DNA of 35,413 nucleotides from a virus: the IMG/VR virus record IMGVR_UViG_3300020219_000008, positions 1 to 35,413 of that record; one strand, written 5' to 3'. The notes beneath the pieces were generated by a model, which had not been told where the DNA came from, did no database searches, and saw only the letters and a program-made list of their open reading frames with translations. Position numbers and translations under genes: made by a program. Shown piece by piece: positions 2,941 to 33,188 of this stretch (its first letter is position 1; each line of letters begins with the position of its first letter).

Positions 2941-4658
2941 AAATTAAAATCGAAACTGATGAGCAAAAAAGACTTAGAAAGCTCAAAGCTGACTTTACTG
3001 CCGATTTTCGTGCTGAATCTGAGTGGCGAAAAGATAAAGAACAATACGGGAAATTCTACGACGGCGACCAACTCTCCGATGAAGAAGTAAAAGCATTAGA
3101 GGAAAGAGGACAGCCGCCAGTCGTAATTAACCGCATCAAGCCAAAACTTGATTCAATATTTGGAATTCAAGAGGCGTTACAGGTAGACACAAAAGCTTAT
3201 CCTGCCGGTGATAGGCAGGAAGAAGCGGAATTTGTTTCCGAAGAGCTGAGGCATATTGAGGATGACTCTGATTTGGATTCAGAAGAATCCTTAGTTTTTG
3301 AAGATATCTGCATTGATGGGCGTGGCTGGTATAAATGTTTTAAAGAGTTTGATGGGCTTAATGGGGTTGACCGGGTTAAACATATCTCGAATGAAAAAGT
3401 GGTCTTGGACAGATACTGTACTGAAGAAGATAGACGAACAGGAGACTTAAAAACTGCAAAGCGCGTGCATGAGACTATCTGGACAGACCTCGGAGACGCT
3501 CAGGATATGTTTCCCGGTCACAAGGAAAAATTGCAGGCAGCGGTTGAGAACCCTGACCTTTCAAGCGTTATGGCTTCTGACCCATCCAAAGAACATAACC
3601 CAGACCAATACGCACAAAAAGGCGATACGAAATATTCTGACACTGAGATGGAAGAACTCCATACGTACGTCGACAAAAAGCAAAGACGCATTCGTATTGT
3701 CACGACCCACTACAGAATTCCTAAGGTAAAAAAGTTTTTGAAGAGTGCAACAGGGACCTTCGATATTACAAATCAATCTGAAAAAACTGTTGAGAGGATG
3801 ATGAATGAACTTGAAGGTCCCACGACATGGACTGAGACCGTTTGGCAGTTAAATACCTGCACGTTTGCATGGAATGTAATTTTAGAAAAGAGAAAAGACA
3901 TTCGTCCCTACGACAGTCAGGCAAAGTTCCCACTTATCATGGCGCCCGGTTATGTCACTCGCTGCAAAAAGAAAAAACCATACGGAATTGTGAAGCAGCA
4001 CATGGATCCGCAAAAAGAAGTGAATAAGCGCAGAAGTAAGATGCTTCACCTTTTAAATACCAACCAAGTTTGGTATGAGGCCGGGGCTTTTGAGGATGAG
4101 GCAAAAGCAAAGAGAGAATCTTCTAGGCCCGATGGTTGGGTAAAGCACAAGCCGCAATTTAAGATAGAAAGAGTGACGCACGAACAATTGGCGCAATCTC
4201 AATTTCAGTTACTACAAGAATCCAAGCAAGAAATAGATACGTCAGGGATTAATAAAGAAGTTGAGGGAAGTTCCCGCGCTAATTCAGCACGTCAGGAACA
4301 GCTTAGACAGCAGCTAGCGCAGCAACCAATTAGAAAGCTATTTGTAAATTTAAGGGCAGCTAGAAAAAGAATCGGTTATTACTTTTTAGATGAAATACTG
4401 CATCGTAATCCAGAAGTAGAAATTAGAAAGTATGATCTCATAATTGACGAGGCTCCTGATACGATTAATTTACAATCGGAAACCTTTGAGATCTTGGCAT
4501 CGTTAGCAAGAGAGGGATTACCAATTCCTCCTGAAATGATAATTGAAATGAGCCCACTTAGTCCGGCAAAGAAGAAAGAATTTTTGGATAGAATGCAACA
4601 AATGCAAATGGCGCAGCAGCAAGCGGCTATGCAGGCAGGGCAAGGGGCTCCGCAGTAA
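2925..4658 (+). CDS. portal protein, P22-like
   Basis: The 577-residue protein forms the dodecameric DNA gate at one capsid vertex. It resembles P22-type podovirus portals: a charged helical N-terminus, the QPPVVINRIKPKLDSIFG segment near residues 65-82, a central body, and a Gln-rich helical C-terminus (MQQMQMAQQQAAMQ) corresponding to the barrel or crown region. P22 gp1 is longer at 725 aa, so the barrel here is short. Translation probably starts at TTG 2925, overlapping the terminase stop by 16 bases, with AGGA about 8 bases upstream. It ends just before a long hairpin-rich spacer. Confidence 0.85.
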   Translation: MADSVEIKIETDEQKRLRKLKADFTADFRAESEWRKDKEQYGKFYDGDQLSDEEVKALEERGQPPVVINRIKPKLDSIFGIQEALQVDTKAYPAGDRQEEAEFVSEELRHIEDDSDLDSEESLVFEDICIDGRGWYKCFKEFDGLNGVDRVKHISNEKVVLDRYCTEEDRRTGDLKTAKRVHETIWTDLGDAQDMFPGHKEKLQAAVENPDLSSVMASDPSKEHNPDQYAQKGDTKYSDTEMEELHTYVDKKQRRIRIVTTHYRIPKVKKFLKSATGTFDITNQSEKTVERMMNELEGPTTWTETVWQLNTCTFAWNVILEKRKDIRPYDSQAKFPLIMAPGYVTRCKKKKPYGIVKQHMDPQKEVNKRRSKMLHLLNTNQVWYEAGAFEDEAKAKRESSRPDGWVKHKPQFKIERVTHEQLAQSQFQLLQESKQEIDTSGINKEVEGSSRANSARQEQLRQQLAQQPIRKLFVNLRAARKRIGYYFLDEILHRNPEVEIRKYDLIIDEAPDTINLQSETFEILASLAREGLPIPPEMIIEMSPLSPAKKKEFLDRMQQMQMAQQQAAMQAGQGAPQ

Positions 4659-10921: not shown

Positions 10922-11772
10922 TTAAACTAGTTGATATTTTGGCGAGCGGAATTAAAGACGCCGTCGGTGAGCCGCTTGCTGGCGGGACCGTTACAAGCTA
11001 TTTAGCCGGGACCACGACGCTTGAAACTCTTTACGAAGATTTCGAGCTGGATGATCCGCATTCAAATCCGTTGACTCTTGACGCCGCTGGCATGGCAGTC
11101 GCCTACTCAACAGAACGTGTGAAGCTAGTCTTTCATAACAGTAGCGGAACCTTAGTCAGGACGATAAATAACGTCGGAACAAATAACAGCGATGTTCCAT
11201 CAAGCACCGAACAAGTTATTCCTGCTGGATTTATTGGGCCCTACGCCGGAAATTCTGTTCCGTTAGGATGGTTAGCTTGCGATGGAAGCGAAGTAAGTAG
11301 AACAATCTATGCGAATCTCTTTGCTAATATTGGAACTTTGTGGGGCGCTGGAAACGGTGCAACAACGTTTACCCTTCCAGATTTTCGAGGTCGCACTGCA
11401 ATTGGAGATGGAACTGGAACTGGTCTTACTGCGCGAACCCTTGGTGCTAACCTCGGGGCTGAAGAAGTAACCTTAACCGGGGCACAGTCCGGTATAGCCG
11501 CGCACAATCACACGCAAAACGCGCACAATCATTTAACTGTAAAGATTGGGACTGGAAATCAAGATCCAATTACAAACACCGTGTCCCTCGCTTACAAAGT
11601 CACCGGCGTAGGCGATGCAGATTATACACTTATCGGAAGAAATGAAACGGCTGACACTGGGCTAAGCTCATCGACAACGGCCACAAACAACGCGGTGTCG
11701 GACACAACAGCACTTTCAGCGCACACAAACATGCAACCAAGCGCAGTAGCGAAATTTATTATCAAAACATAA
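10918..11772 (+). CDS. tail collar domain protein
   Basis: The 284-residue protein has an N-terminal beta domain of about 100 residues (VDILASGIKDAVGEPLAGG). A classic phage tail collar domain follows: IPAGFIGPYAGNSVPLGWLA, CDGSEVSR, FTLPDFRGRTAIGDG. The C-terminal part carries two HNH triplets (AHNHTQNAHNH), which in short-fibre tips of T4 gp12 type coordinate metal. It starts at ATG 10918 in an ATGA overlap. It is likely a receptor-binding fibre or tip protein. Confidence 0.8.
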   Translation: MIKLVDILASGIKDAVGEPLAGGTVTSYLAGTTTLETLYEDFELDDPHSNPLTLDAAGMAVAYSTERVKLVFHNSSGTLVRTINNVGTNNSDVPSSTEQVIPAGFIGPYAGNSVPLGWLACDGSEVSRTIYANLFANIGTLWGAGNGATTFTLPDFRGRTAIGDGTGTGLTARTLGANLGAEEVTLTGAQSGIAAHNHTQNAHNHLTVKIGTGNQDPITNTVSLAYKVTGVGDADYTLIGRNETADTGLSSSTTATNNAVSDTTALSAHTNMQPSAVAKFIIKT

Positions 11773-22746: not shown

Positions 22747-23601
22747 ATGGCAAAAAGATTTACTGATACGTTGAAGTGGAAAAAAGTAGAGTTTCAAGAA
22801 TTAGACTCAAAATTTAAAGTGGCGTGGTTTTATCTTTTGGACAATTGCGATCATAGCGGTATTTGGCCCTTAAACATGCCGCTGTTAAATTTCCAGGCCG
22901 GGATAAGCATTTCTGAAGAAGACCTCTTTAAAGCCTTTCCAGGCAGGTTTTTAAAGCTAAAGAATAGCCTGTTCATCCCTTCTTTCATCATTTTTCAATA
23001 CGGTGAACTTAATCCGGGCTGTAAACCACATCTTTCGGTAATTCGTGATTTAGATAAATTCGGACTTACTAAATATTACAAGAAGGAATTGAAGTCTCTA
23101 TCGAAGAGTATAAGTACTGTATCGAAAGGGTACCGATTGAAGTCTCTATCGAAGAATATAAGTACTATATCGAAAGGGTACCGAAAGAGTACCGTTAGAG
23201 ATAAAGATAAAGATAAAGATCAAGATCAAGATAAAGATCAAGATCAAGATAAATATCAAGATCAAGAAGTTGCACTTGTTGTGCCAAAACTGCCTCGGTT
23301 GGACTTTGAAGCTCTTTACACTCTTTACCCACGATCGGAGGGCAAGACCAAGGGCATAGCCGCAGCTAAAAAGCAGATTAAAAGCTTTGAGGACTACGAT
23401 TTATTACGATCCGCAATTATAAACTACGCGGCTAGAACCGCTAGCGAAGATAAGAAGTTCAAGAAACACTTCTGTACTTTTATAAACTGTTGGCGAGATT
23501 ATCTTGAGCCAGAAAAAGCCATAATCACCGGAAAATCAAATCCAAATCAAGTGCTTGAGGACGATGAACTAGAACAACTTAAAGCAGGCGGGTACGCATG
23601 A
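22747..23601 (+). CDS. replication initiator / helicase-loader-like protein
   Basis: The 284-residue protein has an N-terminal winged-helix-like domain (FTDTLKWKKVEFQELDSKFK, then WFYLLDNCDHSGIW) seen in phage replication initiators. Its C-terminal helical domain (FEALYTLYPRSEGKTKGIAA) resembles the DnaD/DnaB-interacting ends of such proteins. Between them, at about 114-175, two near-identical 16-residue units (KSLSKSISTVSKGYR type) are followed by a Lys-Asp-Gln tract. The DNA beneath carries iteron-like repeats and an AT-rich hexamer array, as lambda O carries ori. GGAGG precedes ATG 22747. It overlaps the ATPase gene by ATGA. Confidence 0.7.
   Translation: MAKRFTDTLKWKKVEFQELDSKFKVAWFYLLDNCDHSGIWPLNMPLLNFQAGISISEEDLFKAFPGRFLKLKNSLFIPSFIIFQYGELNPGCKPHLSVIRDLDKFGLTKYYKKELKSLSKSISTVSKGYRLKSLSKNISTISKGYRKSTVRDKDKDKDQDQDKDQDQDKYQDQEVALVVPKLPRLDFEALYTLYPRSEGKTKGIAAAKKQIKSFEDYDLLRSAIINYAARTASEDKKFKKHFCTFINCWRDYLEPEKAIITGKSNPNQVLEDDELEQLKAGGYA
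23088..23194 (+). repeat. iteron-like tandem 48-bp repeats (candidate origin, binding part)
   Basis: Two 48-base units (23088-23135 and 23136-23183) differ at only a few positions, and an 11-base partial third follows (23184-23194). Each unit holds two TATCGAA boxes, giving four at 23099, 23120, 23147 and 23168 with spacings of 21, 27 and 21 bases, so each unit's pair is two helical turns apart. Each unit also contains AGTACT and GGTACC palindromes. This looks like an initiator-binding array. Confidence 0.6.
23201..23266 (+). repeat. AT-rich hexamer array (candidate duplex-unwinding element)
   Basis: Eleven consecutive hexamers of ATAAAG or ATCAAG type (one is ATAAAT) follow the 48-base repeats. 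One strand is almost free of C. They encode the Asp-Lys/Asp-Gln tract of the initiator. An AT-rich, strand-biased stretch beside iterons is the usual layout of a theta origin. Confidence 0.6.
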
Positions 23602-25910: not shown

Positions 25911-26582
25911 ATGAAACATTTACTAATTATTATCGCGCTAATGTCAGCGCACTTAATAGCAGACGAAGAACCAGTCATGATGCATGGCGAGCCCGAAATA
26001 TCTCAGCGCACTCACCGCATCGCCAATGACTTCGAAGTTGACTTAGCGTCAGGCAAGCTAAAACAAAAAACGCACAAAGCAACTGCTGCGATTATCCGCT
26101 TGGCGGCCTATAAGTTGAAACGTGTGGGCAAGAAAGCGGAGGCCAATCAACTTTTAAAAGAGTGGAAGGCACAAGAAGTATATTTTCTTGGTCGAGGCAT
26201 TGGTGATCATAAGGCGCTAAGCAAGTGGCTCTCTGATAAATACGACATGCTTGAATTTACGTTAGGCAAAGAGATTTGCTATTCCTTAAGGCTGTCTGAT
26301 TTAAAAACAATTAACTACGGCATTCCTGTAGTTCTTTCGTGTGTCGATAACGTGGATTTGGAGGAGTATGGGAACCATTTTATTTATGACGATGAATATC
26401 GCTTGCGTGGGTTAGGTCCTGTCGCGGGTTATTGGACATCGTTCTTTGCTTGTGTTGGTGGCACTTGGGGATCGGGCTTCCTTTTTTGCGCGCCCATTGC
26501 ATCGGGAGTCGAGTACTTAGCTAAGAACTACGTATGCCCGAAGCTAAACGAACCACTTTGGAATAGGGCTTGTAAAAACTAA
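25911..26582 (+). CDS. exported protein of unknown function (223 aa)
   Basis: A signal peptide (MKHLLIIIALMSAHLIA) precedes a charged helical domain and then a Cys-containing, Gly/aromatic-rich C-terminal part. Its hydrophobic stretch VAGYWTSFFACVGGTWGSGF may be a membrane segment or a pore-like hairpin. AAAGGA precedes ATG 25911. The reading frame continues past the TAA stop for 14 codons in the Ser-Arg-Gly-Trp repeat style of the next genes. Together with the lipoprotein before it, it forms a two-gene exported set. Function unknown. Confidence 0.6.
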   Translation: MKHLLIIIALMSAHLIADEEPVMMHGEPEISQRTHRIANDFEVDLASGKLKQKTHKATAAIIRLAAYKLKRVGKKAEANQLLKEWKAQEVYFLGRGIGDHKALSKWLSDKYDMLEFTLGKEICYSLRLSDLKTINYGIPVVLSCVDNVDLEEYGNHFIYDDEYRLRGLGPVAGYWTSFFACVGGTWGSGFLFCAPIASGVEYLAKNYVCPKLNEPLWNRACKN

Positions 26583-26627
26583 AAGTTTAGCCGTAGCGGG
26601 AGCGGGATTTGGAGTCGGAGCAAATGA
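26583..26627 (+). pseudogene. orphan tail of a Ser-X repeat ORF
   Basis: Directly after the 223-residue gene stop, and in the same frame, 14 codons read KFSRSGSGIWSRSK and end in TGA. This is the same ending as the repeat ORF at 26624-26821. It has no start codon of its own, so it is a truncated relic or a readthrough extension. Its TGA overlaps the ATG of the next ORF (ATGA), and its GGAG serves as ribosome-binding site. Confidence 0.5.
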
Positions 26628-26821
26628 AAATAATTCAATATCGAAAACCGAAATGGGGCAGGGGCGGGATTAGGAGCCGAAGCGTGAGCAGTAGCGGAAG
26701 AAGAAGTTGGAGTTTGAGCGGTAGCGGGATTTGGAGCGTGAGTTGGAGCAGGAGCAGGAGCGGGAGCGGGAGCGGGAGCTGGATTTGGAGCGTGAGTTGG
26801 AGCAGGAGCAGGAGCAAATGA
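26624..26821 (+). CDS. Ser-X repeat protein 1 (MKIIQYRKPK family, 65 aa)
   Basis: The ORF encodes the leader MKIIQYRKPKWGRGG, followed by about 45 residues in which every second residue is Ser and the others are Arg, Gly, Trp, Val or Leu, ending SRSRSK. The DNA is a degenerate hexamer, AGY followed by an NGG or NTG codon. The protein is very basic and presumably disordered; it could bind nucleic acid, as Arg-Ser domains do. GGAG of the upstream repeat is 4 bases before the ATG. Two sister leaders follow at 26829 and 26933. Coding on this strand is supported by the shared leader and the ATGA chaining, but not proven. Confidence 0.55.
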   Translation: MKIIQYRKPKWGRGGIRSRSVSSSGRRSWSLSGSGIWSVSWSRSRSGSGSGSWIWSVSWSRSRSK

Positions 26822-26828
26822 AAATAAA

Positions 26829-26936
26829 ATGAAAATAATTCAATATCGAAAGCCGAAGCGGAGCGGGGGCTGGTGTTGGAGTTTGGGCCGTAGCGGGAGC
26901 AGGAGTTGGAGTTTGAGCGGGAGCGTGAGCAAATGA
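26829..26936 (+). CDS. Ser-X repeat protein 2 (35 aa)
   Basis: This is a shorter member of the same family, with leader MKIIQYRKPKR and then about 24 residues of Gly, Trp, Ser, Arg and Leu, ending SGSVSK. It begins 7 bases after the stop of the first ORF and ends in ATGA overlap with the third. A 43-base stretch of it (26869-26911) is identical to 28009-28051 in the last family member, so the copies exchanged sequence or duplicated recently. No function can be assigned. Confidence 0.5.
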   Translation: MKIIQYRKPKRSGGWCWSLGRSGSRSWSLSGSVSK

Positions 26937-27034
26937 AAATAACACAAAATCGAAAACCGAAGCGGGAAAAAAAACGCAGTAGCAAGTGTTTTTGGTGCAG
27001 GTATCAGGCGAAGGAGGGGGATGTCGGATCATGA
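26933..27034 (+). CDS. leader-bearing ORF 3 with CxxC, repeat nearly lost (33 aa)
   Basis: The frame opens MKITQNRKPKREKK, a diverged copy of the family leader, but the Ser-X array is reduced to RSSK. It is followed by CFWC and a short tail. The stop lies 14 bases inside the sigma-like gene, so translating ribosomes would pass over that gene's start. It may work as a coupling leader for the sigma-like protein. A CxxC in so short a peptide could bind metal, or may be accidental. Confidence 0.4.
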   Translation: MKITQNRKPKREKKRSSKCFWCRYQAKEGDVGS

Positions 27035-27569
27035 AAAATTGCTCAGCCGATATCGATACATTGCTCGAGGGCTTGGATTTCAGGGAGACTGTGAAGACAT
27101 CGCTCAAGAGGCTTATTTGGGAGGCCTCAAAAACCCACACTGGAAACAAACCGCAAGGCAAAGAGTTATCGAGGCTATTCGAGGTATTTATGGACGAACT
27201 GTTGGAGGCATCTGCCGTGATCCATTGCTCAATCGATTGGTCGACGAATATGAGGAAGAAATACAACTTTCTTCTACGGGATCAAGCGAGGAGGCTAGAA
27301 TCAATGGGTATGATTTTAAACGAGCTGTTGAAGTCTTACAGGGAGAAGAAAGAGTAATTTTCTTTTTAATATATGTATGGGGTTTCAAAGAAAAAGAGGT
27401 TGGCGATTGCTTCGGAGTTAGCGAGTCGCGGATTAGCCAAAGGCTCAAAAAAATACAAAAGAATATACAAAACAAAATACGCGGCGGCGCAGAGACAAGA
27501 GAACCAGGCGTACAGGGAATCGAGGAGGCGACAGTGGAGCGGGAGCTGGAGCCGGTTGTGGATCAATAG
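27021..27569 (+). CDS. sigma-70-like factor 1
   Basis: The 182-residue protein has the two parts of a minimal sigma factor: a region-2-like helix with CEDIAQEAYLGGLK near residue 24, and a region-4 helix-turn-helix at about 107-145 (FKEKEVGDCFGVSESRISQR). The linker between them is short, as in ECF factors. It probably redirects host RNA polymerase to phage late promoters. The start is ATG 27021, after AAGGAGG. Its last 30 residues run into Ser-X-type hexamer DNA read in another frame (TVERELEPVVDQ). A paralogue follows at 28259. Confidence 0.75.
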   Translation: MSDHEKLLSRYRYIARGLGFQGDCEDIAQEAYLGGLKNPHWKQTARQRVIEAIRGIYGRTVGGICRDPLLNRLVDEYEEEIQLSSTGSSEEARINGYDFKRAVEVLQGEERVIFFLIYVWGFKEKEVGDCFGVSESRISQRLKKIQKNIQNKIRGGAETREPGVQGIEEATVERELEPVVDQ

Positions 27570-27657
27570 CGGGTGCAGTAGCGGAAGAAGAAGTTGGAGC
27601 GTGAGTTGGAGCGGTGGCGGAATGCGAAGTTGGAGTCGTAGCGTGAGCGAATGAAAT
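27529..27657 (+). repeat. hexamer repeat tract at the 3' end of sigma-like gene 1
   Basis: AGY-NGG hexamers run from inside the sigma-like gene to a TGA at about 27654. In the +1 frame relative to that gene, they read WSGSWSRLW, then SWSVSWSGGG and SWSRSVSE. That frame is open back to ATG 27373 (93 residues, basic, with no ribosome-binding site). It could be reached by +1 frameshifting or be a leftover repeat ORF whose leader was replaced by the sigma gene. No MKIIQYRKPK leader is present in this copy. Confidence 0.5.
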
Positions 27658-27684
27658 TTTAAATAACAAAAAGGAAAAGAACAA

Positions 27685-27942
27685 ATGCAAATGATAGTAA
27701 CGAGCGAAGAAAAACAAGGTTTAACAAGTTTATTAGGGCAACAGGTGACGCTGATGTGCGCTAATTATTTTTATACAGGAAAATTAATTGGCGTCGATAA
27801 AACATGTGTGAAGCTTGAAGATCCGGCGATTGTCTACGAAACCGGAGAATGGAATCTGAAGTCATACAAAGATGAACAAAAATTAAATTGCAAATTTTGG
27901 TATGTGAGACTTTCAGCGATTGAGAGTTTCGGATGCAAATAA
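27685..27942 (+). CDS. small beta-barrel protein, Sm/Hfq-like appearance (85 aa)
   Basis: The protein reads as a short N-terminal helix (SEEKQGLTSLLGQQ) and then five strands in Sm-like order: VTLMCANYFYTGKLIGVD, TCVKLEDPAIVYETG, FWYVRLSAIESFG. An Sm or SH3-like barrel would fit; the canonical Hfq YKH motif is absent. AAAAGGAAAAG precedes ATG 27685. Its end overlaps the leader of the next Ser-X ORF by 10 bases. If it is an RNA-binding barrel, the basic repeat protein coupled to it may be its partner. That is inference. Confidence 0.55.
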   Translation: MQMIVTSEEKQGLTSLLGQQVTLMCANYFYTGKLIGVDKTCVKLEDPAIVYETGEWNLKSYKDEQKLNCKFWYVRLSAIESFGCK

Positions 27943-28142
27943 TTCAATATCGAAAACCGAAGCGGGCCGGTAGGAAGAGCATGAGCGGTGTCGGTGGCAT
28001 GATCTGTAGCTGGTGTTGGAGTTTGGGCCGTAGCGGGAGCAGGAGTTGGAGCCGGAGCCGTAGTCGGAGTTTGAGCGGGAGTTGGAGCGGGAGCAGGAGC
28101 GGGAGCAGGAGCAGGAGCTGGAGCAGGAGCTGGAGTAAATAG
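27933..28142 (+). CDS. Ser-X repeat protein 4 (69 aa)
   Basis: This is the longest intact member. The leader MQIIQYRKPKRAGRKSMSG is followed by about 45 residues of alternating Ser with Gly, Arg, Trp or Leu, ending SWSRSWSK. It starts inside the Sm-like gene. Part of it (28009-28051) is identical to the second repeat ORF. The strict hexamer phase keeps the frame when units are gained or lost, so length can change without inactivating it. Highly basic, probably disordered. Confidence 0.55.
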   Translation: MQIIQYRKPKRAGRKSMSGVGGMICSWCWSLGRSGSRSWSRSRSRSLSGSWSGSRSGSRSRSWSRSWSK

Positions 28143-28258
28143 TTTATAGGCGCTTCTTGGTACTTGGTGCGCAGGTACGGGGCTAATTGTTCGGCCCAAA
28201 AGCACGGAGGGAAAGCCTAAAAATCCCTCAAGCGTTATTAATTAAAAAGGAGACGACC

Positions 28259-28735
28259 ATTGAACGTATCAAAAAGTATAAAGCCATTGCTAAAAAACTT
28301 GGATTTAAGCGTGACGCAGAGGACATTGCTAGTGAAGCGTATGCGGATTTTCTTAAACACCCAGATAGGAAACAAACGGACGGCCAACGCGTTATCGATG
28401 CAGTTCGGGTCCTTTTTGGTCGGGGAGATAAGACGAATAGAAAAATCCCGAGTAGGTCTTTCTCGATCGAAGAAGAAGGCTATATCGAGAAGGGGAAAAG
28501 CAACCCCTTCGGTCAGGGCGAAGCACTCGATATCGACAAAAAGCTTGCATCACTAGACGCTGACGAGCGGGTGATGTTCTTGCTGCGTCACCTTTGGGGA
28601 TTTAACATTCATGAGGTTGGCTATTGTTTTGGAATGAGCGGTTCTAGAATATCTCAAAGAATGACAGAGATAGAGAAAAAGGTTGTTATCGATCATCCTA
28701 CGGCGGGTCGACGTGTGATAAAAACGACACATTAG
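28259..28735 (+). CDS. sigma-70-like factor 2 (probable ATT start)
   Basis: The 158-residue protein is a paralogue of the one at 27021. AIAKKLGFKRDAEDIASEAY matches IARGLGFQGDCEDIAQEAY, and the region-4 helix-turn-helix FNIHEVGYCFGMSGSRISQR matches its counterpart. The linker differs (KIPSRSFSIEEEG). No ATG, GTG or TTG lies near the ribosome-binding site AGGAG (28248-28252). The only in-frame codon at correct spacing is ATT 28259, and the homology begins just there. A TTG at 28187 would add 24 unrelated residues. Two sigma-like proteins may serve two late promoter classes. Confidence 0.7.
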   Translation: MERIKKYKAIAKKLGFKRDAEDIASEAYADFLKHPDRKQTDGQRVIDAVRVLFGRGDKTNRKIPSRSFSIEEEGYIEKGKSNPFGQGEALDIDKKLASLDADERVMFLLRHLWGFNIHEVGYCFGMSGSRISQRMTEIEKKVVIDHPTAGRRVIKTTH

Positions 28736-28993: not shown

Positions 28994-29803
28994 CTAGTAA
29001 ACAGAATATTTAGCTCTTAGATACTCTTCAATAAGAAGCGTGTCCGCATCGGAATTAAGAACATTATAAAAAATGATTTCTGCAATATCTGCCTGAACAA
29101 ACTTATTACTATAGTTATTTGCACCGATTATAACGGGTGTAGTTGCTGTAGTAGTATTCCCTGATGCCGTCGATGATACGGCAGCGCCGTTAAGTCTTCC
29201 ATACAGAGTGCCGCCGCCATGCTTCTGAGTTGCAAGGTATTTGGTAGTTAAAGAAACGCCAGTAGTAAAATTGTCCACCGTGCCACCGTCATAATTTCCA
29301 TACCAAAGCGTATTAGTTCCCGCAGTAGAACCTAAGCCCAATCCCGTATTAACGTCGGTTGCTTGAATCCAAATAGCGCCGGTTGAGTAATAAGTTCCCT
29401 CTTCAGAGGGCCCGTCTGCTCTTAATAAAAAAACAGAGTAACTGGAATAGGCAGAAGCCGAGATGATATTAGTATCGAAATCAGTATCCCCTGCCTTGCC
29501 CATATACTGGTCGGTACCGTTAAATCTTAAAACAGGTTTTCCGTTTAAAATATTTGTTTTATAAGTCGGCCCCGTACTTGAAGTGGATGTGTATCCATTC
29601 CCGCTACTATCTGTCCATGAGGTTATCGTGTCATTGTCGGAGGCAACCAGTGAATCTGCTTTGTACCAAGCCGTTAGTCCAGTTACATCGGCTGGGGAAA
29701 AGGCGGCACCGGACTTTATCGGAGTTAAACGCCTAAGCCCGCTTGAAAAACAAAAAGAGCTAAGAACAGAAAAGAATATAAAAAAAGCACAAACTATTTT
29801 CAT
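28994..29803 (-). CDS. exported LamG/concanavalin-like domain protein
   Basis: The 269-residue protein has a Sec signal (MKIVCAFFIFFSVLSSFCFS) followed by a jelly-roll of the LamG/ConA type: GLTAWYKADSL, SWTDSSGNGYTSTSS, GKPVLRFNGTDQYMG, and near the end FVQADIAEIIFYN and IEEYLRAKYSVY. Such domains bind carbohydrate and are common in phage fibres, but there they do not carry signal peptides. This product should be exported to the periplasm or cell surface. It is the last large gene of the leftward cassette. Confidence 0.7.
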   Translation of the reverse strand: MKIVCAFFIFFSVLSSFCFSSGLRRLTPIKSGAAFSPADVTGLTAWYKADSLVASDNDTITSWTDSSGNGYTSTSSTGPTYKTNILNGKPVLRFNGTDQYMGKAGDTDFDTNIISASAYSSYSVFLLRADGPSEEGTYYSTGAIWIQATDVNTGLGLGSTAGTNTLWYGNYDGGTVDNFTTGVSLTTKYLATQKHGGGTLYGRLNGAAVSSTASGNTTTATTPVIIGANNYSNKFVQADIAEIIFYNVLNSDADTLLIEEYLRAKYSVY

Positions 29804-29818
29804 ACATCTCCAAAGGAT

Positions 29819-30625
29819 TTACGGGGTATAGGCTTGCGTGAAAGAGCCATAATAATTAGTGCCATCCCAATACAAGTTTATTAAGTCCATTTTACTTGCC
29901 GTTGCTGTAATGGTGGGAGCAGTGCCGCCGGCCCACTTAACAGTCGCGGGCCAGGTAACTGTAAAGCTGCCAGCTCCTGTTAAAATTCTAATTAGGTATG
30001 ATCCACCCGTAACAGGATTAGTCAAAGTGTAGGTGACATTACCAGTGAGCGTACTTTTTCTAACTGCGCACGAACTTAAATCTAAAGTGTCGGCAGTTGA
30101 GCTATTACCGTCGTCGGTTTCACAAGGTTCTAAATGATAATTTCCGAAAGTGACTTGGGTTGTAAACGCAGGGGAAGCGCTCGGTGCTTTTGTATTTATT
30201 TGAGTTTGAATGGCAGAGGTGACGCCTGTCACATAGCCAAGCTCGGTTGGGGTTACAGCACTTGAAGCAAGTTGTTTAGATCCGTCTAGATAAGGAATGG
30301 TCGTTGCTGTAAGTGAGCTCAGAATCGGTGCAGTAGAAAGAGTTTTTGCTCCTGCAATCGTTTGCGATCCAGTAGTAACAAGCCCGCGTGCTGTACCTGA
30401 TGCCGATGGTAAATTGAATTTATGATCACCCGCCGCATCGTCAACCACCACAAAGTCAGTGCCGGTTGTTCCTACCGTAAGAGTTTGAGCGGCCGTAGCA
30501 TCAGAGTTTATTTGGGTTACGTTGCCGGACCCGCCCCCGGACGCACCGCCGCTAGAAGTGGAGCTTGCGAAAGATGAAACCTGAAGAGCAAAACACAAAA
30601 GATAAACAAGAGAGAACTTTGTCAT
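29819..30625 (-). CDS. exported fibre-like protein
   Basis: A signal peptide (MTKFSLVYLLCFALQVSSFA) leads into a Gly/Ser linker. Tail-fibre-style repeats follow: GSQTIAGAKTLSTAPILSS, TPTELGYVTGVTSAIQTQIN, APSASPAFTTQVTF. The C-terminal beta domain is of the kind seen at fibre tips (TVTWPATVKWAGG, NLYWDGTNYYGSF). I start it at ATG 30625 (268 aa) because AAGGAA lies just upstream. ATG 30685, preceded by GGGAGAAAG, would add 20 residues before the signal peptide. Export of a fibre-like chain is odd. Confidence 0.65.
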   Translation of the reverse strand: MTKFSLVYLLCFALQVSSFASSTSSGGASGGGSGNVTQINSDATAAQTLTVGTTGTDFVVVDDAAGDHKFNLPSASGTARGLVTTGSQTIAGAKTLSTAPILSSLTATTIPYLDGSKQLASSAVTPTELGYVTGVTSAIQTQINTKAPSASPAFTTQVTFGNYHLEPCETDDGNSSTADTLDLSSCAVRKSTLTGNVTYTLTNPVTGGSYLIRILTGAGSFTVTWPATVKWAGGTAPTITATASKMDLINLYWDGTNYYGSFTQAYTP

Positions 30626-30695
30626 ATTTTTCCTTACCAGTATACCGTCTTTGACAGCGCCGTCTTTAATTAAAACTATTTTCATACTTTCTCCC

Positions 30696-30803
30696 TTATT
30701 CTTCGAACCAAAAAACTGCAAATCCATTATGCTTAATTCCCGCTGGAACCACAAAAGTACCGCTTGAAAAAAATCTTTTATATGTACGTCTTGGATGACT
30801 CAT
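30696..30803 (-). CDS. miniature relative of Gly-rich proteins (35 aa)
   Basis: The ORF MSHPRRTYKRFFSSGTFVVP is followed by AGIKHNGFAVFWFEE. Its first half matches the starts of the two larger Gly-rich proteins (MSYPRRTYKIFAASGTFTAP and MGYARHTRKVFAASGTFTAP). Its ending matches theirs in style (WWWE, WWYE), but the whole Gly-rich middle is gone. ATG 30803 overlaps the upstream stop (ATGA), as in its relatives. It is either a deletion remnant or a deliberate short form with only the flanking strands. Confidence 0.5.
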   Translation of the reverse strand: MSHPRRTYKRFFSSGTFVVPAGIKHNGFAVFWFEE

Positions 30804-31276
30804 TCCCACCACCAAATTAAAACTAACCCTGGCCCGCCAGAGCCGCCGTTACCGCCTGCGCCGCCGTCGCCGCCACGCCTTCCATTTGCGGCAATTCTAG
30901 CGCCGCCGCCGCCGCCGCCGCCGCCAGGCGCGCCGCCTACACCGCCGATACCAAATCCTACGGCGTTACTACCTGCCGCTCCAGATGTTGCGGTAACCGC
31001 ATCTATGGCAACATCACCCGCGCCGCCAACACCGCCTGCGGCCCCAGCTTTTCCATTTTGTAAATCAAACGCGGTCGCCGTTTGAAGATCCTGCGCGACA
31101 TCAGAAACTATTGCTGAGGAATTAGTACCGCTGCTACTTCCCCCGCCACCACCACCACCGCCAGAGGCGCCTGCGCCTGCGCCAACGAGAATCAAATTTA
31201 TAAAAGTTACTCCGGCAGGCGCCGTGAATGTGCCGCTAGCTGCAAAGATTTTGTATGTGCGTCTTGGATAGCTCAT
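30800..31276 (-). CDS. Gly-rich fibre-tip-like protein, short form (158 aa)
   Basis: After the entry motif FAASGTFTAPAGVTFINLIL comes a tract of Gly and Ala, with eight Gly in a row, ending GPGLVLIWWWE. There is no signal peptide. ATG 31276 overlaps the upstream stop (ATGA). Bases 31207-31248, coding the entry motif, are identical to 32268-32309 in the longer relative, so one arose from the other recently. The fold is probably the Gly-rich loop domain of receptor-binding fibre tips. Confidence 0.6.
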   Translation of the reverse strand: MSYPRRTYKIFAASGTFTAPAGVTFINLILVGAGAGASGGGGGGGGSSSGTNSSAIVSDVAQDLQTATAFDLQNGKAGAAGGVGGAGDVAIDAVTATSGAAGSNAVGFGIGGVGGAPGGGGGGGGARIAANGRRGGDGGAGGNGGSGGPGLVLIWWWE

Positions 31277-32337
31277 TCGTACCACCAAAGTATTAAGGCA
31301 CCGGATGCACCGGCACTGCCTGCACCACCCGCGCCGCCGTTAGCACCGTCTGTGCCAGCGCCGCCCGTATTTCCATAACCCCCACCGCCGCCAGCGCCGC
31401 CAGCGCCGCCGCCACCAGGTGATCCATAACCGCCAGCGCCAGGACCGCCGGAAGCGCCGCCGTCTGCTCCAACAGTCGGTATTGTTGGCGCGCTCGGATC
31501 ACCGCCGTTACCGCCCTCACCTGAATCTACGCCTGGGGTTGATGAAATTAAAACGCCTGTATCGAGCGTGAGAATAACCGTGGTTACACTTGCAGAGGAG
31601 GCACCGCCGGAAGCGCCGCCGCCGCCGCCGCCGCCTGTACCAGAGGAAGAAAAAACTGTACCGGGTCCAAGCGCGCCACCCGCGCTAGCGCCAAAAATTA
31701 AACCCACCGTCGAAGAATCTAGTCCTGCCTCCCCCGTACCGCCCGTACCTGCGCCATAACCGGCTACGTTTCCGCCTTGTCCGCCAGTCGCACCGGCAGG
31801 AGCGGTATTACTACCGCCTGCCCCACCCCCGCCGCCAGCGCCGCCTTCCGTTAGATCACCTATTAGACCGCCGCTCCCGCTAGCGCCGCCCACGCCATCA
31901 ATAATATCGCCGCCGTCTCCTCCGTCGACATCGAAATAAATATCACCGGAAATTGAAGTAGTCTCGCCGTTATCTCCGGACGCGCCTTGCGTGCCCGCAT
32001 CGCCCTGATTGGCAACACCGCCTGCGCCGCCTACGCTACCCGCGCCGCCCGCGCCGCCAGCGCCGACTGTGATGGAGTACGCATACCCCGGAGATAAAAT
32101 TACATCTGTTAAAAAAAGAATTCTCATTCCCCCTGGATTACCAGCGCCGCCAGAGCCGCCGCCGCCGCCCCCGCCTTCGCCATTATCGCTACCAGCGCCG
32201 CCGCCAGCGCCAGGACCGCCGGAAGCGCCGCCGCCACCGCCGCCGATTAATAGAATGTCATATTTTTTTACTCCGGCAGGCGCCGTGAATGTGCCGCTAG
32301 CTGCAAAGACTTTTCTTGTGTGTCTTGCATATCCCAT
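31273..32337 (-). CDS. Gly-rich fibre-tip-like protein, long form (354 aa)
   Basis: The protein has the same entry motif (FAASGTFTAPAGVKKYDILL), then about 310 residues that are nearly half glycine in repeated GGAGG/GGSGG blocks interrupted by short strands (ILSPGYAYSITVGAGG). It ends SGALILWWYE. No signal peptide is present. The coding DNA is very GC-rich (GCCGCC on the plus strand), unlike its surroundings. It follows the fibre-like gene 32338-33087 without a gap. With its 158- and 35-residue relatives it forms a size series. Confidence 0.6.
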   Translation of the reverse strand: MGYARHTRKVFAASGTFTAPAGVKKYDILLIGGGGGGASGGPGAGGGAGSDNGEGGGGGGGSGGAGNPGGMRILFLTDVILSPGYAYSITVGAGGAGGAGSVGGAGGVANQGDAGTQGASGDNGETTSISGDIYFDVDGGDGGDIIDGVGGASGSGGLIGDLTEGGAGGGGGAGGSNTAPAGATGGQGGNVAGYGAGTGGTGEAGLDSSTVGLIFGASAGGALGPGTVFSSSGTGGGGGGGASGGASSASVTTVILTLDTGVLISSTPGVDSGEGGNGGDPSAPTIPTVGADGGASGGPGAGGYGSPGGGGAGGAGGGGGYGNTGGAGTDGANGGAGGAGSAGASGALILWWYE

Positions 32338-33087
32338 TTAAATGAGAAACCAATTTGTGCCGTTCGCCCAGAATACCCACGCGCCCCAATCGGTTTGGAA
32401 TATTTTAGCTGCAGCAACGCCCTCGATTTGTTCAGAAGCAAATCTATTTACTGTAATATTATTCGTGTTGCATAATCCGGTTGCATCTTTAATTGTTAAT
32501 GTGGTTCCAGATACGGGGGACGGGAGAGTAAGAGTTCTAGCCACCGATGTGTTTACTAGAAAAACATTATTTGCGAATAAGTTTATATTAGAAGAAACAC
32601 TAGTACTTGTTTGCAAGCTTTGATTTGGATAATAGCTTATTACGAAAAATTTAGAAGTTCCATCACAGGTCAAAAGAATCGAGCCATAATTTTGATTAAT
32701 TACAAAAGTCGTAGCACCATTAATTGTGTCAGAGCCCGCGCGCGAAACGGTAATATTATTCGTCCCAGCTGATCCCGATTCGTCTTCAATCCAAAATCTT
32801 TGCCCGGGCCCGCAAGTACTGGCCGCTGGGAGAGTCACCGTTCGCGCCGCAGCGGTGCTAGTAATCCCCATGTATCCGCTAGCGTTAGTGAGGGTAACGT
32901 TTCCAGCTGAAGTGACTCGTAAAATTGAAAAACCTGCTAATGTTGAAACGCCTGTAAACGTAGGGGAGGCTTTAGGAGCTTTTAAATTTAATTCGTCCTG
33001 AAGATCGGTTTGAGCAGAAAGCGTACCAGTAATACTTCCCCAAGTTCCGCCGCCGCCGCCGCCGCCGCTTTGACTAACACTACTCAT
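32338..33087 (-). CDS. fibre-like beta protein with two repeated modules
   Basis: The 249-residue protein begins with a Gly linker and a common fibre element (GTLSAQTDLQDELNLKAPKA). It then carries two related beta modules: AARTVTLPAAST with FWIEDESGSAGTNNITVSRA, and VARTLTLPSPVS with LTIKDATGLCNTNNITVNRF. The first module also resembles the small tail protein at 13174-13557. ATG 33087 overlaps the stop of a 34-residue ORF (ATGA). No signal peptide belongs to this frame. It may be a fibre or part of an exported complex. Confidence 0.6.
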   Translation of the reverse strand: MSSVSQSGGGGGGGTWGSITGTLSAQTDLQDELNLKAPKASPTFTGVSTLAGFSILRVTSAGNVTLTNASGYMGITSTAAARTVTLPAASTCGPGQRFWIEDESGSAGTNNITVSRAGSDTINGATTFVINQNYGSILLTCDGTSKFFVISYYPNQSLQTSTSVSSNINLFANNVFLVNTSVARTLTLPSPVSGTTLTIKDATGLCNTNNITVNRFASEQIEGVAAAKIFQTDWGAWVFWANGTNWFLI

Positions 33088-33188
33088 CGGTGTGCCCAAG
33101 TGGTTAGAGTAATTTCACCGCTTGTAGCTGTACTTCCTGAGTCGGATCTAACGTAACACCGAAGATAAACAACAGAGAACTTTCTCAT
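33084..33188 (-). CDS. short ORF, degraded signal-peptide copy (34 aa)
   Basis: The ORF starts MRKFSVVYLRCYVRSDSG, and its DNA (33164-33202) matches the signal-peptide start of the exported fibre-like gene (30601-30639) with only 2 differences in 39 bases. Changed residues (R, C, R in the core) break the hydrophobic stretch, so it would not export well. It ends ATGA-coupled to the next gene and may now serve only as a translated leader. It is a product of segment duplication. Confidence 0.45.
   Translation of the reverse strand: MRKFSVVYLRCYVRSDSGSTATSGEITLTTWAHR

Follow-up and report, generated by a model that had tools for sequence, protein, structure and literature searches.

Low-complexity tails occur in Sm/LSm proteins such as SmB, SmD1, SmD3 and LSm4, where they are of the Arg-Gly type, and among P-body scaffolds. 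The viral locus analyzed here resembles these proteins in linking an Sm fold to an Arg-rich low-complexity chain; it differs in that the chain is encoded by a separate gene, has a Ser-X period and contains Trp besides Arg and Gly, and in lacking conservation of the RNA-binding residues of Sm1 and Sm2. Sm-like folds also occur in the bacterial and phage setting, in Hfq and in phage-encoded Sm-like proteins (PDB 3BY7, a solved Sm-like structure, presumably comes from a cyanophage). We know of no array partner of Hfq, and no homology to Hfq was detected: the profile of the phage family (alignment A1) has no PDB sequence match at E≤1 and no Pfam match. The alternating Ser-Arg stretches recall those of SR/RS-domain splicing proteins, which combine an RRM with long RS repeats, but in the phage arrays Arg, Gly and Trp have roughly equal shares (X is Arg in 33% of cases) and their ORFs consist of leader and array only, with no folded RNA-binding domain.

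Literature searches returned no description of an Sm-like/array module, and no model describing the pair was found in Pfam, PHROG or NCBIfam; the first-pass annotation, which knew of no named system of this make-up, is in agreement with both. What we describe is a two-gene phage module: an Sm/LSm-fold protein and a short basic low-complexity protein, the gene for which usually starts at or near the Sm stop codon.

Organization of the cassette

The window – the whole 35,413-nucleotide stretch of viral DNA analyzed – contains a cassette in which repeat ORFs alternate with two sigma-70-like genes and an Sm-like gene (Table 1). All four frames that the first-pass annotation had read as a shared leader followed by an array with Ser at alternate residues are present, including the one whose array is nearly lost (repeat ORF 3), as are the orphan tail and a further array, then placed at 27529-27657 and seen here as leaderless. 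The arrays are in frame and far above chance: in the window up to 18 (Ser-X) units follow one another without a break, compared with no more than 6 in 100 Markov-1 simulations of it. The frames had been listed correctly, with the minor correction that leader ATGs overlap the stop of the preceding frame. This is the case at three sites (ATGA at 26624 and 26933, ATGCAAATAA at 27933), the last of which places the start of repeat ORF 4 within the final codons of the Sm-like gene, 10 nt ahead of the end of its stop codon. The orphan tail likewise terminates on the ATGA of the next unit. The last residues of array ORFs in the window are ...SK or ...SE, ahead of the stop codon. Scans of the window for Rfam families, tRNAs, promoters and terminators were empty or at chance level, and the leader DNA pattern ATHCARTAYCG... 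gave only four chance matches, in the frame of another gene.

Table 1. Features of the cassette, in window coordinates.
Feature	Position	Strand	Remarks
ORF, 223 aa, 5' neighbor of the cassette	25911..26582	+	no family match
Orphan array tail	26583..26627	+	reads KFSRSGSGIWSRSK, then stop; in frame after the TAA of ORF 25911-26582
Repeat ORF 1	26624..26821	+	leader MKIIQYRKPK, then (Ser-X) array; net charge +14
Repeat ORF 2	26829..26936	+	leader MKIIQYRKPK, then short array
Repeat ORF 3	26933..27034	+	leader MKITQNRKPK; array nearly gone
Sigma-70-like gene 1	27021..27569	+	regions 2 and 4; 95% identity, L006 and L007 only
Leaderless array	~27535..27657	+	overlaps 3' end of sigma-70-like gene 1 in a different frame
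Sm-like (LSm-fold) protein, 85 aa	27685..27942	+	conserved partner; AF2 pLDDT 83; best Foldseek match Lsm/Sm
Repeat ORF 4	27933..28142	+	leader MQIIQYRKPK, array terminating SK and stop
Sigma-70-like gene 2	28187..28735	+	paralogous to gene 1; uncertain start, possibly at TTG 28260

Repeats of other kinds occur elsewhere in the window. A replication-type ORF (22747-23601) has two in-frame tandem repeats at 23088-23267 (a 48-bp duplication and a DKDQDQD run), and a DNA methylase-like gene (ORF 204-1094) has at 731-790 a Leu/Gln-rich run, QLQQLERLQNLQNLQNLEQL, of other length and sequence in contig L007 (1560-1690): another fast repeat in this phage group. Glycine-rich tail-type proteins occupy the minus strand at 28994-33099, and the Pro-rich ORFs opposing them on the plus strand look like mirror readings.

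The small barrel gene is predicted to have an Sm/LSm fold

The gene first noted as a small beta-barrel is predicted to adopt the Sm/LSm fold, with an N-terminal helix and a strongly bent five-stranded barrel. A second AF2 model has a pLDDT of 90; Foldseek comparison with Lsm/Sm chains gave a probability of 1.00 and TM scores of up to 0.68 (query) and 0.84 (target), the best matches of the Sm-like models being Lsm1-7/Lsm2-8 and Sm chains. Pfam, PHROG and NCBIfam gave no match to the family.

Relatives of the 85-aa protein (family 1) occur in many viral contigs, and arrays detected by DNA pattern led to a second family (A2, A3). Comparison by hhalign shows the two to be homologous (probability 97.7, E 1.5e-12), and both have the predicted Sm/LSm fold. 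In alignment A1, as judged by eye, the canonical LSm RNA-binding signature (the Sm1 Asn of loop 3 and the Sm2 RG-N/D of loop 5) is not conserved: loop 3 reads D/N-x-x-C-V-x-L and the final strand AIES(F/Y), while G32, the glycine of Sm1 type, does not vary. The sequence consequently gives no backing to RNA binding by the ring, and the apparent absence of the canonical Sm RNA-contact residues is the main caution attached to the mechanism proposed below.

The Sm-like gene is the partner of the array

An array gene lies beside 110 of 118 distinct Sm-like genes in viral contigs, the two families taken together: downstream in 105, and upstream only in 5. Six of the eight Sm-like genes with no array are at contig ends, and the other two (L220, L304) look decayed. 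The reverse search, in which arrays were located by DNA pattern alone (AGY or TCG) and their neighbors then checked, gave the same picture. For arrays of the AGY pattern with Arg, Gly and Trp, an Sm-like gene is present 8-130 nt upstream in 18 of 23; the remaining five start less than 500 nt from the contig start, so that away from contig ends the figure is 18 of 18. For the TCG pattern an Sm-like gene adjoins 81 of 90 non-edge arrays; to this set L401 was added by inspection, its Sm-like gene being directly 3' of the array. As a control, the 3' ends of the remaining genes at these loci were scored; 6 of 291 are positive, some of which are extra copies of the same arrays. Contigs often break within or just after an array (for example L062, L066, L077, L200, L209 and L245); because the repeat breaks assemblies, the module is under-counted.

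Viruses very remote from one another have kept the pair together, and we regard it as nearly certain that the array is translated and is a partner of the Sm-like gene. The repeat ORFs that the first-pass annotation took to be basic proteins are real, basic and tied to an Sm-like gene in 110 of 118 distinct loci. Of the co-occurrence in relatives that it proposed to test, that of the arrays with the Sm-like family is strong; that with the sigma-like family is confined to L006 and L007.

Modules are also multiplied. About five tandem leader-array units follow one Sm gene in L074 and four arrays precede one Sm gene in L204, while L147, L155, L169 and L244 have duplicated arrays or duplicated Sm-array pairs.

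Sigma-like genes belong to this lineage

Both sigma-70-like genes withstand scrutiny. The first matches Pfam Sigma70_r4 and TIGR02937 above cut-off, as well as PHROG 1740; the second matches the same families, but below the curated cut-offs; sigma-70 regions 2 and 4 are recognizable. They are paralogues, with 42% identity between sigma 2 and the sigma 1 orthologues of relatives. L006 and L007, which carry the close relatives of sigma 1, share its leaders and arrays, with differences in their number and placement: in L006 a YqaJ-like nuclease gene is separated from sigma 1 by three units, and another three follow the Sm-like gene. The window array at 27535-27657 is 89% identical to the L006 array preceding sigma 1 (L006 5861-6001), which indicates that arrays recombine and move modules; the leaderless array, joined to the end of a sigma gene, is probably a product of such recombination.

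Beyond L006 and L007 no sigma-like homologue flanks an Sm-like/array locus among the loci tested, and a search of a phage collection with sigma 1 gave no match. The duplication of a unit of repeat ORF plus sigma-like gene, suggested initially, is therefore not upheld: sigma is absent from the other loci tested, and arrays multiply in its absence (L204, L074). The key partner of the array is the Sm-like gene; the sigma-like genes are neighbors specific to this lineage.

Composition is conserved, order is not

The array protein has a leader of about 8-15 residues and about 11-45 Ser-X units, each unit being (Ser codon)(NGG). Arg accounts for 33%, Gly for 30% and Trp for 28% of X over 107 distinct arrays, and Ser is encoded by AGY only in 30 arrays, by TCN only in 73 and by both in 4. 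Within arrays, bases 1-2 of the Ser codon differ from the majority in 0.2% of units, compared with 54% for the first base of X. The R:G:W ratio does not change with GC content (rho about 0.05), while the Arg codon shifts from AGG to CGG (CGN) as GC rises (rho 0.50, p 6e-7). The share of Trp among NGG units stays at 0.30-0.34; from base composition one would expect 0.29, declining to 0.19. Net charge is positive in all 97 arrays tested, and median length is 71 aa. Since Ser is kept via either AGY or TCN, and R:G:W remains constant over GC while the Arg codon switches, the protein is the level at which selection acts; for the same reasons we rejected, as the main reading, arrays as a DNA repeat only. 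The order of neighboring X residues is near-random (0.92-1.14 relative to shuffled), as expected of a disordered, composition-constrained chain.

At X, roughly 95% of the Arg and Gly codons have G as their third base, and this extends to low-GC phages, whose preference elsewhere is for AGA and GGA: protein selection alone does not require this, nor does it fully explain it. Given hexamer turnover, a putative explanation is that NGG is the sole codon box for X in which one base switches between Arg, Gly and Trp with neither a stop (TGA) nor Cys. L240 and L257 are identical in Sm DNA; their arrays are distinguished by two 6-nt indels and four substitutions. The first-pass annotation had held that free frameshifts and stops in relatives would speak against its reading: in this cleanest pair the indels are hexamers only, but the arrays at window positions 26933-27034 and in L220 and L304 are decayed.

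Other frames are open in some arrays. (Gly-Arg)n and (Gly-Ala)n readings, available in TCG or GGAGCN arrays, were rejected, as a different Ser codon alters them: with TCA they become Gly-His/Gln, and with TCT Gly-Leu or a TAG-containing frame, whereas the Ser-X frame is constant and carries the leader. In L401 (minus strand, reverse-complement ~3166-3640) the other-frame reading of the TCG array is (Gly-Arg)n and stays open into the Sm-like gene; that gene has its own ATG, and the frame is a possible natural fusion frame.

Leader type tracks the Sm family

The start codon of the array ORF is ATG in 84 cases and GTG in 7, and the commonest arrangement (31 of 91) is an ATGA overlap with the Sm stop codon. 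Leaders in family 1 are mostly basic (MRGxKQK(Y/W)R, MKITQHRKPKW, MRSAKQKW); those in family 2 are of the MNxAxLRxGxD(W) type, or short and hydrophobic. This co-variation, judged by eye, suggests that the leader may dock on the cognate Sm-like protein, for which a conserved Sm segment – IVYETGEW in family 1, WIADTGRF in family 2 – is a candidate site.

Distribution and neighborhood

The pair is present in two annotated phage records, both from Manatee Spring. In MW202573 the protein UOF78858.1 (hypothetical, Caudoviricetes sp.) reads MNAAIIRAGLDASWSWSWSWSRSRSWSWSGSRSGSRSRSGSGS and is encoded directly 3' of a family 2 Sm-like gene: it is the same module. In MW202825 neither gene of the pair is annotated. 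A MAG contig (L200) terminates at the start of its array. A search of plasmids gave no match, a terminase search aimed at the host gave distant matches only, and a search with MAG contig JAGWFS010000009.1 yielded no host assignment. The surroundings of the module are a variable accessory zone: neighbors at other loci include a DNA methylase, an HNH endonuclease, a resolvase and, in L136 within about 1-2 kb of the pair, the type I Thoeris inhibitor Tad4 (10986-11636; Pfam E 8e-30).

Discussion

We propose that a phage nucleic-acid body is scaffolded by an Sm-like ring and its disordered tail, which is rich in Arg and Trp and encoded by a gene of its own; we hold this tentatively, at somewhat less than an even chance. 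The Sm-like protein would assemble as a ring, on which the leader would dock – an arrangement that would account for leader type tracking the Sm family. The array, from a gene probably translationally coupled to the Sm-like gene, would form a disordered multivalent tail in which Arg and Trp are stickers and Ser and Gly spacers; during infection it would bind nucleic acid and bring this together with the ring in an assembly or condensate. Its action would parallel that of the Arg-Gly tails in eukaryotic SmB/SmD1/SmD3 and LSm4, yet with the tail encoded as a separate gene. The fuller version, a split ring-plus-tail ribonucleoprotein scaffold in which the ring recruits the hexamer-repeat protein via its cognate leader to form a phage-specific condensate, and in which the (Ser codon)(NGG) hexamer permits quick change in length and in Arg/Gly/Trp content with no break of frame and no stop, is possible but more doubtful.

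Other readings have to be weighed against this scaffold. The basic Ser/Arg/Trp peptide could be the active component, an inhibitor or decoy directed at the host (for instance at nucleic-acid-sensing defence or host RNA machinery), with the Sm-like protein as carrier or antidote. The small, variable neighborhoods of accessory type (methylase, HNH, resolvase), rapid array turnover and the proximity of Tad4 in L136 fit; but near-universal pairing over two deep Sm families exceeds the constancy to be expected of an arms-race gene, and Tad4 is a single anti-defence neighbor in a small sample, so that we consider this reading unlikely. The array might instead act as nucleic acid, its RNA (or DNA) with GG every six bases being an Sm-like binding site (autoregulation) or a recombination hot spot, and its frame secondary. 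The preference for G at the third base of X, the shuffling of array-joined modules between window and L006, and the five loci with arrays only upstream of the Sm gene speak for it. Retention of Ser through unrelated codons, R:G:W ratios steady against base composition, retained start codons and length changes by hexamers in the cleanest pair speak against it, and we hold it to be quite unlikely.

A reading at the level of translation is very unlikely, although Arg, Gly and Trp are exactly the set that NGG encodes: runs of NGG 3' of the Sm-like gene would slow or stop ribosomes, tuning its expression or titrating host tRNAs or ribosomes. A suppressive effect of NGG codons located at the 5' end of genes, via peptidyl-tRNA drop-off, is reported in PMC12204400. 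The known effect is confined to the first codons, ahead of the array, and X1 does not track base composition; Ser, needless for NGG alone, is also fixed. Arg plus Trp content and net positive charge would suit a cationic peptide acting on membranes (lysis or superinfection exclusion), but with about half of array residues Ser, no hydrophobic segment, no visible signal peptide in the leaders and the constant pairing with an Sm fold left with no reason, we regard this as highly improbable. Least credible of all is that the repeat proteins regulate, or were co-duplicated with, the sigma-like proteins, as first suggested: adjacency in the window, L006 and L007 is set against the lack of a flanking sigma-like gene at every other Sm-like/array locus tested.

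Both genes of the module are overlooked by family libraries and by most annotations. The pair is widespread among uncultured viruses, and what it conserves along with the Sm-like partner is a low-complexity protein, beyond a fold. It provides a natural series of more than 100 distinct disordered-looking proteins of fixed composition and near-random order, on which questions of composition versus order in phase-separating proteins can be tested directly. It also suggests that phages may have Sm-plus-tail assemblies.
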